Below, piece by piece: positions 3,635 to 20,129 of a stretch of 32,321 bases of DNA. How positions within the stretch are numbered: position 1 is the stretch's first letter; every line of letters starts with the position of its first letter. A program made the translations under genes and the position numbers. The stretch spans positions 1 to 32,321 of the forward strand of contig JAFTDD010000027.1 of the NCBI GenBank assembly GCA_017454355.1. The letters are read 5' to 3'. Origin of the DNA: Muribaculaceae bacterium. GTDB taxonomy: Bacteria > Bacteroidota > Bacteroidia > Bacteroidales > Muribaculaceae. A model generated the notes under the pieces. It was not told the origin of the DNA and did no database searches. It saw only the letters and a program-made list of their open reading frames with translations.

Positions 3635-6211
3635 TTACTTGACAACAACCTTCTTGCTGTGGGTGTCGCTGGCGACGACGTAGGTGCCGGCTGGCAGGAA
3701 GACCGTCTTGCTGCCGGAGGTTGCGGCAACCACATTGGCCTCCATGTCATACACCTCCAGCCGTTCACCCACGGCGGTGACCATCGTGATGGAGCCGTTG
3801 CCGGCCAAGGCATCCCAGCGGCGAGCGTCAAGCGCGGTGCCGTTGAGGATGGCCTCGAGGATGGCGTTCACGTCGCCCACGTCAACCTTATCATCACCGT
3901 TCACGTCAAAGGCGAGCGTCTGGCCGCCGGTGCTGAGGATATCCTCGAGCACGGCGTTCACGTCGCCCACGTCAACGCTGGTGTCGCCGTTCACATCGTA
4001 GGGCGAGCCCGGTCTGGGTTCCGGCGTGGTGAAGTCCGTGATGGAGATATCGTCGATATTGACGCGAGAGCCCACCGTCTGGCGGATCTTGATACGCACG
4101 TTGCCGGCGATGTTCACGTTATAACTCGGGTGAATTTCGTTGCTGCCGGCGGTGATGTTGCTGTCAATCACCGTCCAAGTGCTGCCGCCGTCCTGACTCA
4201 CCTCAAGCACGAGAGTGGCTTGCGGGTCGCTGCCATAGGCACGCGCGTAGAACGAGATGGTGCCCGCGCCGCCGGCCTTGTCGTCGGCCATATAGATTTC
4301 AGAGTCATTGTTCTTGCCCAGGCGCACGCAACGCTCGTCGTGGGCATGGTCGCTCGTGGAGCCCCACACGCCGGCGTTGTCAAACACCCAGCCGCACATG
4401 TCGCCCTGCACCGTTTTGGTCCAGTAGCCACCCTCGGAGCAACTCTCGAATTGCTCGAGGAAGTTCATCGGCTCGACGATGTAGGCCACCACGTCCATCT
4501 CGCTGCCGTCCAGCGTGGCGGTGCTGGCCGTGATGATACCCTCGTAGGTGCCGCCCAGGCCGGTGTTGGCCACGCGCACATAGAAGTTCTCGCCCTCGGG
4601 AGCGAGTATCACCTCGGCGGCCCAGGTGCGGCGGTCGCGGCTCAACTCAAAGTTGCCGCTCACGTCGAGGATGATGTCCTCGTCGATGTTCTCGGTATAA
4701 ACCTTACCCTCAAGCACCGGCGAGTCCTCGCCGGGACCCATCGAGAAGGTGAAATCCTGGCCGCTGACGCACTGGATGTCGATAATCTTCTCGGGCTCGA
4801 AAGTGGTGACCGTAATCTCGTTGCTGGTGAAGTCGCCGTCGGTGAGCCAATATTTATAGGTGGTGCTCGGCGTCAGGCCGTCCACAATCTGGCGTTGGGC
4901 GCTGGCCTTGACCTCCTTGGGGTAGCCATCGAGCAGTTCGTCACCGGCCGGAGTGACCGTGGCCACGTGCAGCGTGTAGTTGCCCGTGGAGAAGTCGGCG
5001 TTGGACCAGCGCGCCACAAACGAGGTGCTCGTCACGTTCTCGGCGGCAAGCGCGGGAATGCCGTCAACGGTGACAGCCTTGACAGCCACTGTGGCGCGAA
5101 CCTCCTTGCTAGAGATAATTACCTCGTCGGTGAACGTGCCGGCCTCGTCGCTGATAAAGTCCACCATCATAATCATGCCGTTATTGGCGTCGGCAGCCTT
5201 GATGATGCTGCGGTCGAGCGTGAACGGCGACGACGGGTTGGCAAGGCTCACGTTGAGGTCTTGGGTGAGGTTGGTGCCGGCCACCTCAATCTCGCCGTCA
5301 ATGCCCACGTCCACGCGAGCCACGCCCAGGTCGATGGTCGAGCCGGAAACCGGGCTGGTGAGCACCGGCGTGACGTCGGCCGAGCCGGTCCAGAGTTGCG
5401 TCTTCTTGTCGCCCCAGATATACTCGGCCAACTCGGGGTGGTCGATAAAGGGGTTACGGTTCTTCTGCTTGGCATAGGCCGCGTTGTTGCGGTTGATTTC
5501 CTTCTCACTCACCGGGTCCTGACGGTGCCACTTTAGCAGCAGGTTGATGGCCCAGTCGGTGAACACGGGGTAACGCTTGCCGTCGTTGCGCGTCATGCCG
5601 CCGCTGCTCCAGTTGCCAATCTCGCTGTTATAGCACGTGGCCATATAGAAGTAGGTGCGAGCAAAGTCACCCTTGTACATGTCGTCCGGCTCAAACACCT
5701 TGCCCGAGTAGCCCGGGAAGGTGCAACTGCCCAACTTGCCCAGCGGCTTGTTCGTGCCGTTGGTGGGCAGGTAAGTGCCGCCGGCGCACTCGCCGAAGGG
5801 GTACGCGCTGCGCTGGTTGTTGACGTAGCCGTCGGTGGGATAAAGATGGAAAATGTCGCTATACTTGTCGTCCTTGTTGCTGCCCCACCAACTCTTGGGG
5901 AACGAGTGCTCGCGGTTGACGCAGTCGCCCACCTTGCTGTAACTGCCGCAGTGCTTCTGACCGATGGGGAACTTGGTGGTGGCGTACATGTCCCAATAGT
6001 AGCCGCCGTTGTTGTCGGTCGTCTTGTAGGCGTCCCACAGGCCATCGTAGGAAATCTTGGTGTGGGAGCGGATGATACCGCTCAGGGCCGTGATCAAGCC
6101 CTCTTGGTTCTTGTTCATCGCCGCCTTGTAGTAGCCCTTTGGCTCTTGGGCAACGGCAGTGCCGGCAAGCATCGCCAGCACAATCAGTAATGATAACAAT
6201 CTGGTTTTCAT
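3635..6211 (-). CDS. Secreted endonuclease I with dockerin and sorting tail
   Basis: An 858-residue exported multidomain protein. A signal peptide (1-21) is followed by an endonuclease I domain (about 22-270) with the signature [11 protein letters not shown] at 99-109 and [14 protein letters not shown] at 122-135; these His/Asn-metal nucleases cut DNA non-specifically. Next come beta-rich modules: a choice-of-anchor-like region, a fibronectin type III-like domain (about 385-475) and a jelly-roll-like region (about 590-720, ending in DDISITDF). Two [13 protein letters not shown] repeats form a type I dockerin at about 739-789. The C-terminus (PAGTYVV...KKVVVK) looks like a type IX-style sorting or surface-anchoring tail. 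It probably degrades extracellular DNA for nutrients or biofilm control. It lies 106 bp behind rlmN in the same direction, with no clear own promoter. Confidence 0.88.
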
Positions 6212-8900: not shown

Positions 8901-9665
8901 ATGACTGAAATAAACAATGGGATAATAAAGACGGTGCGCTCGCTCTGGGCCAAGAAAGGACGCGACGACGAGGGCCTTTGGGTGGCCGAGGGCACCAAGA
9001 CCGTGCGCGACACGTGGGAGCACTTTCGCTGCCGCTGGCTGGTGTGCACCCGCGCATGGTTTGACCAGTGTGGACGCGCCGAGTATATGCCCCACGTGGT
9101 GTTCGCCCCCAAAGGGCAGATGGGCCGCATGAGCCAGTTCACCACGCCGGGCGACGTGATTGCCGTTTACGAGAAGCCAGAGGTGACGGTCGACGCCGAG
9201 GCCGTGCGCGCCGGCGTCAACCTCGTGCTCGACAACCTCCAGGACCCGGGCAACCTAGGCACTATCGTCCGATTGGCCGACTGGTTCGGCGTCAGCCACA
9301 TCTTCTGCTCCCCCACCACCGTCGACGTGTGGGGACACAAGGTGGTGCAGGCCACAATGGGCTCAATCGCCAGAGTGAAAGTCGTTTACACCGACCTTGA
9401 CGACCTCTTCGACGAGTACGACGGCATGCCGGTATATGGCACCTTCCTCGACGGCGACAACATCTACGGCGCGGCGCCACTGGGCGGACCGTGCTTCATC
9501 GTGCTCGGCAACGAGGGGCAGGGCATCGGCCGCAAGGCCGCCGCGCGCGTCACGCGCCGCCTCACCATCCCTATGGCGCCGCGCACCGGCGACCACAGCG
9601 ACAGCCTCAACGTGGGCGTCGCCGCCGCCATCACCCTCAGCGAGTTCCACCGCTCCACCCTCTGA
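8901..9665 (+). CDS. SpoU/TrmH-family RNA methyltransferase
   Basis: A 254-residue SPOUT-class (knotted) RNA 2'-O-methyltransferase. The N-terminal about 95 residues (KTVRSLWAKKGRDDEGLWVAEG) form the substrate-binding domain typical of RlmB/TsnR-like members. The three SpoU motifs follow: LDNLQDPGNLGTIVRLA (about 114-130), FIVLGNEGQGIG (about 199-210) and LTIPM...DSLNVGVAAAI near the C-terminus. SAM is the methyl donor. The exact nucleotide target (23S rRNA, 16S rRNA or tRNA) cannot be read from the sequence. It is divergent from pepT, with a -7 box just upstream, and is followed by a 677-bp non-coding region. Confidence 0.9.
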   Translation: MTEINNGIIKTVRSLWAKKGRDDEGLWVAEGTKTVRDTWEHFRCRWLVCTRAWFDQCGRAEYMPHVVFAPKGQMGRMSQFTTPGDVIAVYEKPEVTVDAEAVRAGVNLVLDNLQDPGNLGTIVRLADWFGVSHIFCSPTTVDVWGHKVVQATMGSIARVKVVYTDLDDLFDEYDGMPVYGTFLDGDNIYGAAPLGGPCFIVLGNEGQGIGRKAAARVTRRLTIPMAPRTGDHSDSLNVGVAAAITLSEFHRSTL

Positions 9666-9684: not shown

Positions 9685-10224
9685 TTTTTAGACAAAAGAA
9701 ACAAAAGAACAAAAGATTCACGGGAATTCACGTTAATTCACTGGAGATAAAGACAGAACCGCGAATTACACGATTTTAACGAATTATTATTCACGGGAAT
9801 TCACGGGAGACTAAAGATAGAGAATGTTTGTTTTTGGGTTATATGGCACAGACAGTGACGACACAGTGGTCGGAGACCACAGCGCTCTCGGAGAGAGCGA
9901 CCTGCACGGAACCCCATGCGGCCCGTCCTCGGAGAGGCGGGACGCGTGGGGTGGGACGCGTGCGCGTGTCGTGGTCCTCGGCGAGGGCCACCTGCCGGGC
10001 GCTGTCGTGGCCCTCTCCGAGGACCGGTGAGGCGGCGGCGGGGCACCCACCTCACGCCGGGCACCTCTCCGAGGATGCCCGCCATGGGGTTCCTTGCAAG
10101 TCGTCATCTCCGATGACGTGGTGGTCTCCGACCACCCCCCGCCTCTACCCGTAGCCTCCCCCCTCAGACGAGTGATTTTTAGACAGAAGAACAGAAGAAC
10201 AAAAAAGATTCACGGAAATTCACG
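9685..10224. repeat. Imperfect direct repeats flanking the hairpin island
   Basis: About 48 bp starting TTTTTAGACA, passing through AGAACAAAA and ending in ATTCACG occurs at 9685-9732 and again, with a few changes, at 10176-10224. A shorter third copy starts near 10239. The two main copies bracket the GC-rich core. Confidence 0.75.
9866..10135. repeat. GC-rich palindrome built of eight triloop mini-hairpins
   Basis: Eight hairpins lie in mirror order: 9866-9880 (GTGGTC stem, loop GGA), 9883-9899 (CGCTCTC, GGA), 9922-9941 (CCCG/CCTC with one bulge, GGA), 9971-9991 (GTGGTCCTC, GGC), 10009-10025 (GG/CCTC with one mismatch, TCC), 10059-10080 (GGGCA/CCTC with one bulge, TCC), 10102-10118 (CGTCATC, TCC) and 10121-10135 (GTGGTC, TCC). 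The left half aligns with the reverse complement of the right half over its whole length, including the linkers (GGAACCCCATG). Read on the strand where the loop is purine, seven of eight loops are GGA closed by C-G. The function is unknown. Confidence 0.9.
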
Positions 10225-10342
10225 AGAATTCACGGGAGATTTTTAGACAGAATGGCAGAAGAACAAAATAGAGGTAGATAGACGAAAATAGACGAGAGAG
10301 AATTTTTCGGGAATTTTCGAGAATTTTCGAGATAAAAAGACT

Positions 10343-11740
10343 ATGGCAAAGACGGTAAAGACGACATACTTCTGCCGCAATTGCGGCGCCGAGTCGCCAA
10401 AATGGGTGGGACGATGCCCACAGTGCGGCCAGTGGAACACGTTTGTCGAAGAGGTGGTCACGCCCAAGGCCGGCAAAGGGCTGCTGCCCGGCTCTCCCGT
10501 GGGCGATGACGGACGGCGGCAACCCGCCGAACCGGTAAAAATCAGCGAAATCAAGGCCGAGCAACTGCCGCGCGTCAAACTGCCCAGCGGCGAGTTGAAC
10601 CGCGTGCTCGGCGGCGGCCTCGTGCCCGGCTCAATCGTGCTCATCGGCGGCGAACCGGGCATCGGCAAGAGTACGCTCGTGCTCCAGAACGTGCTGCGCA
10701 TCCGCTCGCGCAAGGTACTATACGTCAGCGGCGAGGAAAGCCCCCAGCAACTGCGCATGCGCGCCGACCGCATCGCGCGCAGCCACCTCGACTGCGAGAC
10801 TTACCTCCTATGCGAGACCTCGCTCGAGGCAATCTTCACCGCCATCAGCAACCACAAGCCCGACCTGCTCATCGTCGACTCCATCCAAACCATCGCCAGC
10901 GACGCCCTCGAGAGCGCCGCCGGCAGCGTGAGCCAAGTCAGGGAGTGCGCCGCCGCTTTCCTGCGATACGCCAAGACCAGCGGCACCCCCGTCATCCTCA
11001 TCGGGCACATCAACAAGGAGGGCACACTGGCCGGACCGAAAGTGCTCGAGCACATCGTCGACGCCGTCATCCAGTTTGAGGGCGACCGGCAGTATATGTA
11101 CCGCATCCTGCGCTCCATCAAAAACCGCTTCGGCAACACGAGCGAGATAGGCATCTATGAGATGAAGCAGGACGGCCTGCGCGAGGTCACCAACCCCGGC
11201 GAGATGCTGCTCACGCAACACGACGCCGCCCTGAGCGGCACCGCCGTGGGAGTGATGGTCGACGGTGCGAGGCCATTCCTGATTGAGGTGCAGGCGCTCG
11301 TGAGCACCGCCGCCTACGGCACCGCCCAACGCTCGGTCACCGGCTTTGACCAGCGGCGCATGAACATGCTGCTGGCAGTGCTCGAGAAACGCGTCGGCTT
11401 CAAACTGGCAGCCAAAGACGTCTTCCTCAACATCGCCGGCGGACTGCGCGTGGCCGACCCCGCCCTCGACCTGGCCGTCACCTGCGCCATCCTCTCCAGC
11501 AACGTCGACATGGCCCTCGACAACGGCGTCTGCATGGCCGGCGAAGTGGGCCTCTCGGGAGAGATACGCCCCGTCACGCGCATCGACCAGCGCATCAGCG
11601 AGGCCGAGAAACTCGGCTTCAACACCATCCTCGTGCCTGCCCACAACCTCAAGGGCATCGACACCTCGCGCGCCACAATCCGCATCGTCGAGGTCGCCCG
11701 CGTCGAGGACGCCTTCCGCAACCTCTTCAACCCCTCCTGA
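10343..11740 (+). CDS. radA: DNA repair protein RadA
   Basis: A 465-residue RecA-related ATPase that helps process recombination intermediates by driving branch migration or D-loop extension. Domains in order: a zinc finger with C11, C14, C25 and C28; a RecA-like core with Walker A GEPGIGKS (103-110) and the RadA-specific KNRFG motif (about residue 258); and a C-terminal Lon-protease-like domain (GGLRVADPALDLAVTCAILSS) used for hexamer assembly rather than proteolysis. Length and motifs are complete. It stands alone behind the hairpin island, and no own promoter consensus is obvious. Confidence 0.96.
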   Translation: MAKTVKTTYFCRNCGAESPKWVGRCPQCGQWNTFVEEVVTPKAGKGLLPGSPVGDDGRRQPAEPVKISEIKAEQLPRVKLPSGELNRVLGGGLVPGSIVLIGGEPGIGKSTLVLQNVLRIRSRKVLYVSGEESPQQLRMRADRIARSHLDCETYLLCETSLEAIFTAISNHKPDLLIVDSIQTIASDALESAAGSVSQVRECAAAFLRYAKTSGTPVILIGHINKEGTLAGPKVLEHIVDAVIQFEGDRQYMYRILRSIKNRFGNTSEIGIYEMKQDGLREVTNPGEMLLTQHDAALSGTAVGVMVDGARPFLIEVQALVSTAAYGTAQRSVTGFDQRRMNMLLAVLEKRVGFKLAAKDVFLNIAGGLRVADPALDLAVTCAILSSNVDMALDNGVCMAGEVGLSGEIRPVTRIDQRISEAEKLGFNTILVPAHNLKGIDTSRATIRIVEVARVEDAFRNLFNPS

Positions 11741-19489: not shown

Positions 19490-19541
19490 ATTGGTTAGAA
19501 ACCCACAGACACTATATAGACTGACATTAGAGACAGAAAAA

Positions 19542-20128
19542 GGTCACCTGTAAAAACCTGTGTTTAACATTCATTCTTCCGTCGTTTCCACAATGCCGAG
19601 CAATGATGACATCGAAGATGTCTGATGGGTCGAAGACCCCACTTCGTGTGAAAGACCATGCAAGAGCCTCGTGGAGGCTCGCCGCTTGGTCGGAGGAGAG
19701 ATGGCGCCGTGTGCCTCGAAGAGGAACTTTACCGGAGCCGGCCTCAAGTGAGACGATAGTCATTCCACTCGAGACCCGAACGCTCAATCATCTCGCGAAA
19801 ATATGGGGACGGTTCTTCTGTTTCACCGCTTCGCGGCTGAAACAGAAGAACCGTCCCCATCCTGCATTTTCCCTGCCGCGGTTCGCAAATCGAACCACCA
19901 AAAACTCAATCACAAAGTTCCTCTACGAGGCACGCGACGGTTCCCGCTATGACCAAGCGGCGAGCATCTGCGAGGCTCTTGCATGGTCTTTAACATGAAT
20001 TCGGGTCTTCGACCCGACTGACATCTTCGATGTCCTAATCCGTTTGATATGCCTTGACGTCACCACATCTCACCATCGAAGTGAAGTTGAGCGCAAGGCA
20101 TATCGGACACAGGTTTTTACAGGTGACC
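19542..20128. mobile_element. 587-bp MITE-like palindromic element with triloop hairpins
   Basis: Perfect 22-bp terminal inverted repeats (19542-19563 and 20107-20128) bound an element with no gene. Inside are mirror copies of about 130 bp, roughly 19603-19730 against 19915-20034. Mini-hairpins include GACATC-GAA (19608-19622), GGGTC-GAA (19627-19639), GAGCCTC-GTG (19664-19680), CCTC-GAA (19714-19724), then CCTC-TAC (19920-19930), CGGGTC-TTC (20002-20016) and GACATC-TTC (20020-20034). The centre is a 23-bp perfect stem (19803-19860) capped by CCGC-TTC-GCGG. The next gene is truncated at the right boundary. No transposase is present, so it would have to be moved in trans. Confidence 0.75.
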
Positions 20129-20129
20129 C

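Follow-up and report, generated by a model that had tools for sequence, protein, structure and literature searches.

What kind of element is the imperfect palindrome at positions 9866-10135 of a Muribaculaceae contig (JAFTDD010000027.1 of assembly GCA_017454355.1), which lies between a SpoU methylase gene and radA? The stretch analysed, hereafter the window, is 32,321 nucleotides long, and a preliminary description made from its sequence cautiously suggested for the palindrome a role as a single-stranded DNA landmark, protein-binding scaffold or structured RNA. The present analysis indicates, with a probability of roughly 0.87, that the palindrome is a non-autonomous mobile repeat similar to REPINs, which are formed by pairs of repetitive extragenic palindromes (REPs), and that it represents the two inverted ends of an element of a Y1 (HUH) transposase without the gene. 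The link to Y1/HUH transposases rests on the flanking of their genes by units of the same kind, in the genus of the window's genome and in other families of the order Bacteroidales. Beyond the preliminary description, the palindrome thus appears as a dispersed, transposase-linked repeat, and a second, decayed relative is found at 19609-20034 of the window.

The four-hairpin unit

The arms of the palindrome, 9866-9955 and 10046-10135, are 77% complementary over 90 nt. Folding of 9840-10160 gives z scores of -8.3 as DNA and -10.7 as RNA, with none of 100 shuffles equal in either case, so chance folding was rejected. On the forward strand the loops read GGA, GGA, GGA and GGC, followed by four times TCC, exactly as first described, and their mirror order is explained by an inverted pair, 9866-9991 (+) and 10007-10135 (-), of one unit of about 127 nt with four hairpins (H1-H4), the two copies being separated by 15 nt. 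H1 and H2 are short and perfect and are followed by a linker ending in AA, by H3, which has about 40 nt and a C-rich foot, and by H4, which is the hairpin nearest the transposase gene where a gene is present. In related loci, the place of the 15-nt centre is taken by a transposase gene or by a gap of at least 30 nt.

The triloops are therefore present, while the picture of eight equal mini-hairpins with stems of 6-9 bp has to be modified. Perfect Watson-Crick stems of 6-7 bp support the triloop in four of the eight hairpins (9866, 9883, 10102 and 10120), the remaining four have a 4-bp perfect apical stem followed by a bulge, wobble or mismatch, and hairpins 3 and 6 are the tips of two hairpins of about 40 nt (9912-9951 by folding and 10050-10089 by homology). 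Elsewhere in the window (31.7 kb) there are 23 triloop stems of at least 6 bp, about 0.2 per 270 nt, against 4 in the palindrome. GNA triloops closed by a C-G pair are unusually stable in DNA.

Units beside Y1 transposase genes

Y1/HUH transposases act on hairpins in single-stranded DNA, and their genes (PF01797) occur in 55 of the 61 genomes sampled from the genus, with 10 matches in the window's own genome (G000, a 2.7-Mb draft of 102 contigs that is 89% complete) and 9 in a close relative of the same genus (G198). Flanks read by eye display the same plan with other stems beside several genes that carry the Y---Q--HH motif, most clearly in C29 and C68 of G198; in C68 (L164), units at 4747-4872 (+) and 5337-5459 (-) bracket the transposase gene. 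The Pfam domain Y1_Tnp is present in both genes tested.

A covariance model, R1, was built from 13 units, none of which, within the reach of the contigs, adjoins a transposase gene (three of the units are truncated at the end of a contig), and it has matches at E<=1e-3 in 58 of 101 genomes of the genus. The 30 best genomes, without the model sources G000 and G198, provided 28 loci (L168-L195), among which 11 have a Y---Q--HH transposase gene with a unit within 150 nt, and in 10 of these 11 the gene is bracketed by inverted units. Further samples were picked by protein, as best matches per genome and not as a random draw of genes. From the 30 protein-picked loci of the genus, L196 (the query), L202 (same protein as L201), L221 and L222 (no open reading frame, ORF, by the rule) were dropped, and an R1 unit stands on at least one side of 19 of the 26 remaining genes and on both sides of 7. 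The upstream unit ends 24-97 nt before the assigned gene start in the eight loci measured. No R1 match at E<=0.01 was obtained in 52 of the 80 radA loci (331,858 bases).

When one such transposase protein was searched across the order, 157 of 295 sampled genomes had matches at E<=1e-10. The motifs HxH and Y---Q--HH are carried by 49 distinct ORFs, a figure that gives occurrence and not frequency, as the motifs were the selection rule. The first residue of the HUH motif is N in all 26 genus genes, and order-wide it is D in 19 and N in 11. For the two proteins tested, the best NCBIfam model is transpos_IS200, with 52.2 and 51.9 bits against a cut-off of 55.

In C77 of G000 (L159), a Y1 gene is interrupted by an AT-rich repeat stretch and reads as two pieces. 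A phmmer search of one transposase against solved structures returned one match, labelled epidermal growth factor receptor (E 5.5e-4), which is unexplained and was not used.

Hairpin counts in transposase-gene flanks

Watson-Crick triloop hairpins of at least 5 bp were also counted in 190-nt flanks of the protein-picked genes independently of any model, with distant windows of the same loci as control. The genus sample has 26 genes, L196 and L197 (short flank), L221 and L222 being dropped and L202 kept, so that two proteins are identical; GNA hairpins lie upstream of 15 genes, TNC hairpins downstream of 22 and both at 15, against 5 (GNA) and 7 (TNC) of 213 distant windows. The order-wide sample of 29 genes comes from 30 loci (L226-L255), without L233 (own genome) and L254 (EHxH) and with two genes in L227, and has GNA upstream of 23, TNC downstream of 19 and both at 17, against 7 and 6 of 244 distant windows. 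When the flanks are 200 nt, 30 order-wide genes have GNA hairpins on the 5' side in 24 cases and TNC hairpins on the 3' side in 20, where mononucleotide shuffles predict 0.5. For the 49 Y---Q--HH genes the counts are 34 and 39, and a control of 49 of the 80 radA loci gives one GNA and one TNC hairpin; this set includes the R1-picked loci, so the protein-picked counts (26 genus and 29 order-wide genes) are the fair figures.

An H3-like hairpin after A(A/G) is found on the 5' side of 26 and the 3' side of 24 of the 26 genus genes, compared with 19 of 118 distant windows, and order-wide on the 5' side of 10 and the 3' side of 16 of 29 genes, compared with 10 of 136. As controls of this test, unit L of the palindrome (Table 1) passes and unit R fails due to a changed foot base. 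It replaced a first scan (0 of 55 genes, 1 of 931 control windows) that had no positive control and whose mismatch rule counted loop bases. Because of the GNA/TNC and H3 counts in these flanks, the plan is considered widespread in the order and clearest in the genus. Flanks in the other families (L226-L255) are simpler, with GNA hairpins about 100 and 32 nt before the start codon and, in several cases, a CCCCC...GGGGG hairpin between the two.

Conservation of pairing

The pairing was tested on the 13 units, aligned with MAFFT without structure, for 38 pairs, with 500 shuffles and slide controls. Of the cells, 95.3% are paired and every slid control is far lower, and H1 and H2 are 100% paired despite differing stem sequences. 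Thirteen pairs are changed on both sides, a number reached in 2 of 500 shuffles, and 47 cells are changed on both sides, against 17.5 +- 3.3 in shuffles, with none of 500 as high. In the alignment A2, 90.7% of cells are paired and all 38 pairs are changed on both sides, which is supportive only, this alignment being fitted to the model. Judged by these sequence comparisons, the hairpin fold appears to be under selection. Loss of pairing in homologues, which the preliminary description had named as evidence that would speak against it, is not what is seen, and the pairing is kept with compensatory changes.

Dispersal and dimorphic sites

A DNA search of G000, in which all 28 candidates were scored, found whole or partial copies on 7 contigs (E<1e-5), among them C90 (97% identity), C52 (95%) and C21 (94%), the last truncated at the end of its contig, together with members of a diverged subfamily in C32, C89 and C48. 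A simple sporadic inverted repeat was rejected, as the element is dispersed in the genome. R1 counts, which are lower bounds with 33 candidates scored per genome, amount to at least 11 units at 7 places in G000, at least 14 in G198 and at least 29 in G146, the highest. Gene-less copies are found in unrelated contexts, and G198 is rich in copies, some of them half units or asymmetric, and several are degraded. Several copies stop at contig ends, so the element may explain some contig breaks.

The site between the SpoU gene and radA is without the element in G198, where window positions 9755-10307 have no collinear counterpart, and G198 is also without a copy at the site orthologous to C90 of G000. 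A comparison of C106 of G198 with C47 of G000 showed diverged sequence there, without a cleanly empty site. Other dispersed palindromes are common (for example TGTCGCCCCTGACGGGGCT and GGACACAATGAATTGTGTCC; L092, L146 and L156), and the similar-looking palindrome CCGTAGGGGCGACAG flanks a Y---Q--HH gene in C52b of G000.

A second, decayed element in the window

R1 detects a second inverted pair in the window, 19626-19729 (E 2e-4) and 19915-20016 (E 3e-4). The stretch 19537-19798 matches the transposase gene in C29 of G198 at its 3' end, together with the downstream unit, with 94.7% identity, and 19889-19990 has 98% identity to its upstream unit. From these matches, the second pair reads as a decayed INTERMEDIATE in the window, with the gene between the units gone and another palindrome in its place. 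Together with the full element and the gene-less doublet, this decayed element with a gene remnant means that all three states are observed.

The palindrome inside the second element, GGGGACGGTTCTTCTGTTTC, occupies 19795-19860 (see also L160), and its close relatives repeatedly flank a different Y1 gene in C31 of G000 (NHIH...YIHLNP, 288 aa). This gene resembles subclass 2.1, which, like subclass 1.2, is published as without REPs in the accessible text of PMC6006769. The repeat GGTCACCTGTAAAAACCTGTG occurs in inverted orientation on the two outer sides of the second element, 19541-19561 and 20107-20129, perhaps as its outer ends or as another repeat, and a variant of GGTCACCTGTAAAAACCTGTG adjoins the C106 copy of G198.

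Recognition features and proposed mechanism

The features of the unit were tabulated for 100 units found by R1 in 67 sources, many of them related copies, in an alignment fitted to the model. GNA loops occur in H1 of 89, H2 of 45, H3 of 90 and H4 of 86 units, and the dinucleotide just before the H3 foot is AA in 86 units and AG in the other 14; the units used for R1 had GGA loops and AA, which favours GNA loops and AA among the units found. GTAG is present at the H3 foot, the only hairpin foot examined, in 3 of the 100. H4 has a mismatch or wobble at a fixed position, G.G in 43, G.A in 29 and T.G in 11 units, and this is not a product of the model, since the model had T.G where most units show G.G or G.A. 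On the GNA strand, G.T cells number 93 and A.C cells 20, which is not relied on as the model prefers G.U. According to the accessible text of PMC8266576, the E. coli REP requires a conserved mismatch, and the IS608 and ISDra2 enzymes contact the loop and unpaired or mismatched bases.

In the mechanism proposed here, hairpins with GNA loops would fold on a single strand, for example the lagging-strand template, where a TnpA_Y1 of the subclass-1.2 type would bind them strand-specifically via the loops and the H4 mismatch and would cut close to a position that the A(A/G) step specifies. Binding, cleavage and mobilisation by the transposase would in this way copy or move gene-bearing and gene-less versions alike. 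The suggested landmark or scaffold fits this mechanism to the extent that the same kind of unit flanks Y1/HUH genes and GNA triloops prevail there, with the binding of a protein as a presumed step.

We lean towards the wider view that Bacteroidales contain a large undescribed family of composite REP systems. Each TnpA_Y1 of the subclass-1.2 type would have its own four-hairpin address, with a constant plan (H1-H2-A(A/G)-H3-H4, GNA triloops and the H4 mismatch) and a lineage-specific stem code, and would seed gene-less inverted doublets; the choice of GNA triloops would reflect their exceptional stability in single-stranded DNA. Such systems would offer a testable recognition code for the class, in which the plan is constant and the stems vary, and a natural case of recurring ultrastable GNA DNA triloops that makes the reading of folded single-stranded DNA by Y1 enzymes testable. 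They may also explain part of the palindromic intergenic repeats in these gut genomes.

Weight of the evidence and alternative explanations

Several observations weigh against the palindrome being a gene-less derivative of a Y1 transposase element. Among the protein-picked genes of the genus, 7 of 26 lack an R1 unit both upstream and downstream, and by the criteria used the paired GNA/TNC signature is missing in 11 of 26 genes of the genus sample and in 12 of 29 across the order. Outside the genus the H3 test becomes weaker, its background in the genus (19/118) is not negligible, and the H2 loop is GNA in only 45 units. In neither G000 nor G198 was a gene found between units of the exact GGA subfamily, and by DNA this subfamily was detected in only 3 of 297 sampled genomes of the family, with two candidates scored per genome: G000, G198 and G101, the last with a weak match (34 nt, E 7e-4). 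The HUH motif departs from the published DH[IV]H, with N in 41 and D in 8 of the 49 ORFs. The structure used in the pairing test came in part from the consensus of the alignment on which it was tested, and one of five covariation measures, further pair types, gave 24 against 24.0 in shuffles, with 308 of 500 reaching that value. For a REP the copy number is low, some copies in G000 end at contig ends in a draft that is 89% complete, and adjacent AT-rich repeats are also part of the change at the radA site, which blurs the insertion boundaries.

Part of this would suit a host-domesticated pool of REPs, acting in nucleoid, gyrase or integration host factor (IHF) binding or in the protection of mRNA ends and linked to the transposase only historically. 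Low copy number, intergenic position, degraded copies or half units and the patchy distribution in the family (R1 matches in 27 of 198 genomes and 12 of 30 genera at E<=1e-4) agree with it, but it is unlikely, since a complete ORF together with paired units is present in 10 of the 28 loci picked by the model and in 7 of the 26 picked by protein, and since close relatives differ in whether a site carries the element. A classical IS200/IS605 insertion sequence, or a deletion derivative of one, with subterminal hairpins recognised on one strand, would account for the Y1_Tnp domain and for transpos_IS200 as the best NCBIfam model (52 bits). This score is, however, below the family cut-off, and the units are inverted, GNA 5' and TNC 3', whereas IS608-type ends have hairpins on the same strand, which makes this explanation very improbable.

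The hairpins could instead act mainly as RNA, in a leader or in terminator-like control of the transposase or nearby host genes, with passive copies. The distance of 24-97 nt between upstream unit and gene start, the conservation of pairing at the RNA level too, and the statement in the accessible text of PMC6006769 that known REPs can act on transcripts are in line with this idea; inverted units on both sides of the gene, which place the GNA loops of the 3' unit on the antisense strand, and gene-less copies in unrelated contexts render it quite improbable. A known RNA was rejected, as no Rfam family reaches the gathering score over the units: in the window and 16 loci only tRNAs do so, and an earlier scan had a single miRNA match, by chance, of 19 bits against its cut-off of 60. 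That the palindrome is a protein-coding gene has a negligible probability. ORF 9828-10154 spans it, and in the five complete copies compared the frame stays open for 293 nt without indels, but GC-rich sequence favours open frames, the ORF has no Pfam match, and the 20 variable sites are distributed 7/8/5 over the codon positions. With 14 non-synonymous and 5 synonymous variable codons, the codon-level constraint that would have contradicted the preliminary description is not observed.

Features and neighbours of the palindrome

The features of both elements are listed in Table 1. The neighbouring genes agree with those first named: the upstream gene, 8901-9665, has a SpoU_methylase domain match, and the downstream gene, 10343-11740, encodes a RadA-like protein with KaiC/AAA, zinc ribbon and ChlI/Lon_C domains. 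The nearest relatives of this RadA protein come from metagenome-assembled genomes labelled Muribaculaceae, Prevotellaceae, Porphyromonadaceae or Bacteroidales, which points to Bacteroidales as the order. AT-rich leader-like repeats (ATTCACGGGAATTCACGGGAGA) flank the palindrome on both sides, 9716-9810 and 10208-10299, and G198 has one AT-rich leader of this type before radA.

Table 1. Coordinates of the two elements and their parts in the window
Feature	Positions	Strand	Basis
Left extension common to four other complete copies compared (C90, C52, C68, C106)	9820-9865	+	Side-by-side comparison
Unit L, composite REP-like four-hairpin unit, GNA-type loops on +	9866-9991	+	R1, 121.9 bits (one of the 13 model units)
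H1 of unit L, 6-bp stem, GGA triloop	9866-9880	+	
H2 of unit L, 7-bp stem, GGA triloop	9883-9899	+	
AA step directly 5' of H3 foot, unit L	9910-9911	+	Sequence
H3 of unit L, long hairpin, C-rich foot, apical GGA triloop	9912-9951	+	Fold; R1 helix 3
H4 of unit L, GGC triloop, T.G at the position mismatched in most related units	9971-9991	+	
15-nt centre between units L and R	9992-10006	.	
Unit R, same four hairpins inverted, TCC loops on + and GGA on -	10007-10135	-	R1, 121.0 bits (one of the 13 model units)
H3 of unit R, one foot pair weakened	10050-10089	-	T at 10052, C in four other copies compared
H2 of unit R, 7-bp stem	10102-10118	-	
H1 of unit R, 7-bp stem	10120-10136	-	
Unit A, 3' unit of the second element, another subfamily (GAA and GTG loops)	19609-19743	+	R1, 24.1 bits for 19626-19729
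Transposase gene remnant, last ~18 codons	19744-19798	-	DNA match to 3' end of G198 C29 gene
Unit B, 5' unit of the second element	19889-20034	-	R1, 23.2 bits for 19915-20016

Comparison with known systems

Gene-less copies that retain both ends are known as derivatives of IS200/IS605 resembling miniature inverted-repeat (MITE) or palindrome-associated (PATE) transposable elements; unlike in these, the ends described here are inverted multi-hairpin units. The transposase genes share with TnpA_Y1 subclass 1.2 the Y---Q--HH motif, a length of about 150 aa and the occurrence in Bacteroidetes, as defined by Quentin et al. 2018 (PMC6006769), whose accessible text gives the HUH motif as DH[IV]H and describes the subclass as generally without terminal secondary structures, with 'no' for REP. 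In contrast, the genes sampled here often have NHxH and carry paired GNA/TNC hairpins in 15 of 26 and 17 of 29 cases. Because they share the Y motif and often have NHxH, 'subclass-1.2 type' is used as a careful wording, set by motifs and not by a tree. As far as the accessible text of PMC6006769 describes it, the automatic search started from known REPs, with GTAG or GTGG as foot sequence, so composite units would escape it. The same text reports 'atypical secondary structures' for subclass 2.6, whose Bacteroidetes Y1 genes likewise have atypical flanking repeats that occur elsewhere in the genome; there the motif is YIH[QN]NP, unlike the Y---Q--HH found here, and the structures are described as weaker.

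The closest likeness is to REPs and REPINs with TnpA_REP, the REP-associated tyrosine transposase (RAYT) of E. coli and of the Stenotrophomonas REPtrons. In both cases imperfect palindromes are dispersed between genes as single copies or inverted doublets, and repeats of the same kind flank a Y1/HUH gene, here at the level of the unit kind and not of the exact GGA subfamily. As in the E. coli REP, where a bulge is described in the accessible text of PMC8266576, the imperfect stem has a conserved mismatch. The differences are that a unit has four hairpins with GNA triloops and a REP has one, that A(A/G) stands at the H3 foot in place of the GT[AG]G of REPs, that about ten units are found where REPs number in the hundreds (>100 per genome), and that the transposase has Y---Q--HH and RAYT has Y---NP. 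The preliminary description knew of no element with this plan, and no description of the four-hairpin plan was found in the literature searched (supplements and subscription papers lay outside the search), although the general kind, a REP or REPIN with a transposase, is known. Since the element would work like a REPIN but departs from canonical REPs in the GT[AG]G and copy-number features, it is counted as a variant of the REPIN kind, and it assigns companion repeats to a class of HUH transposases published as having none.
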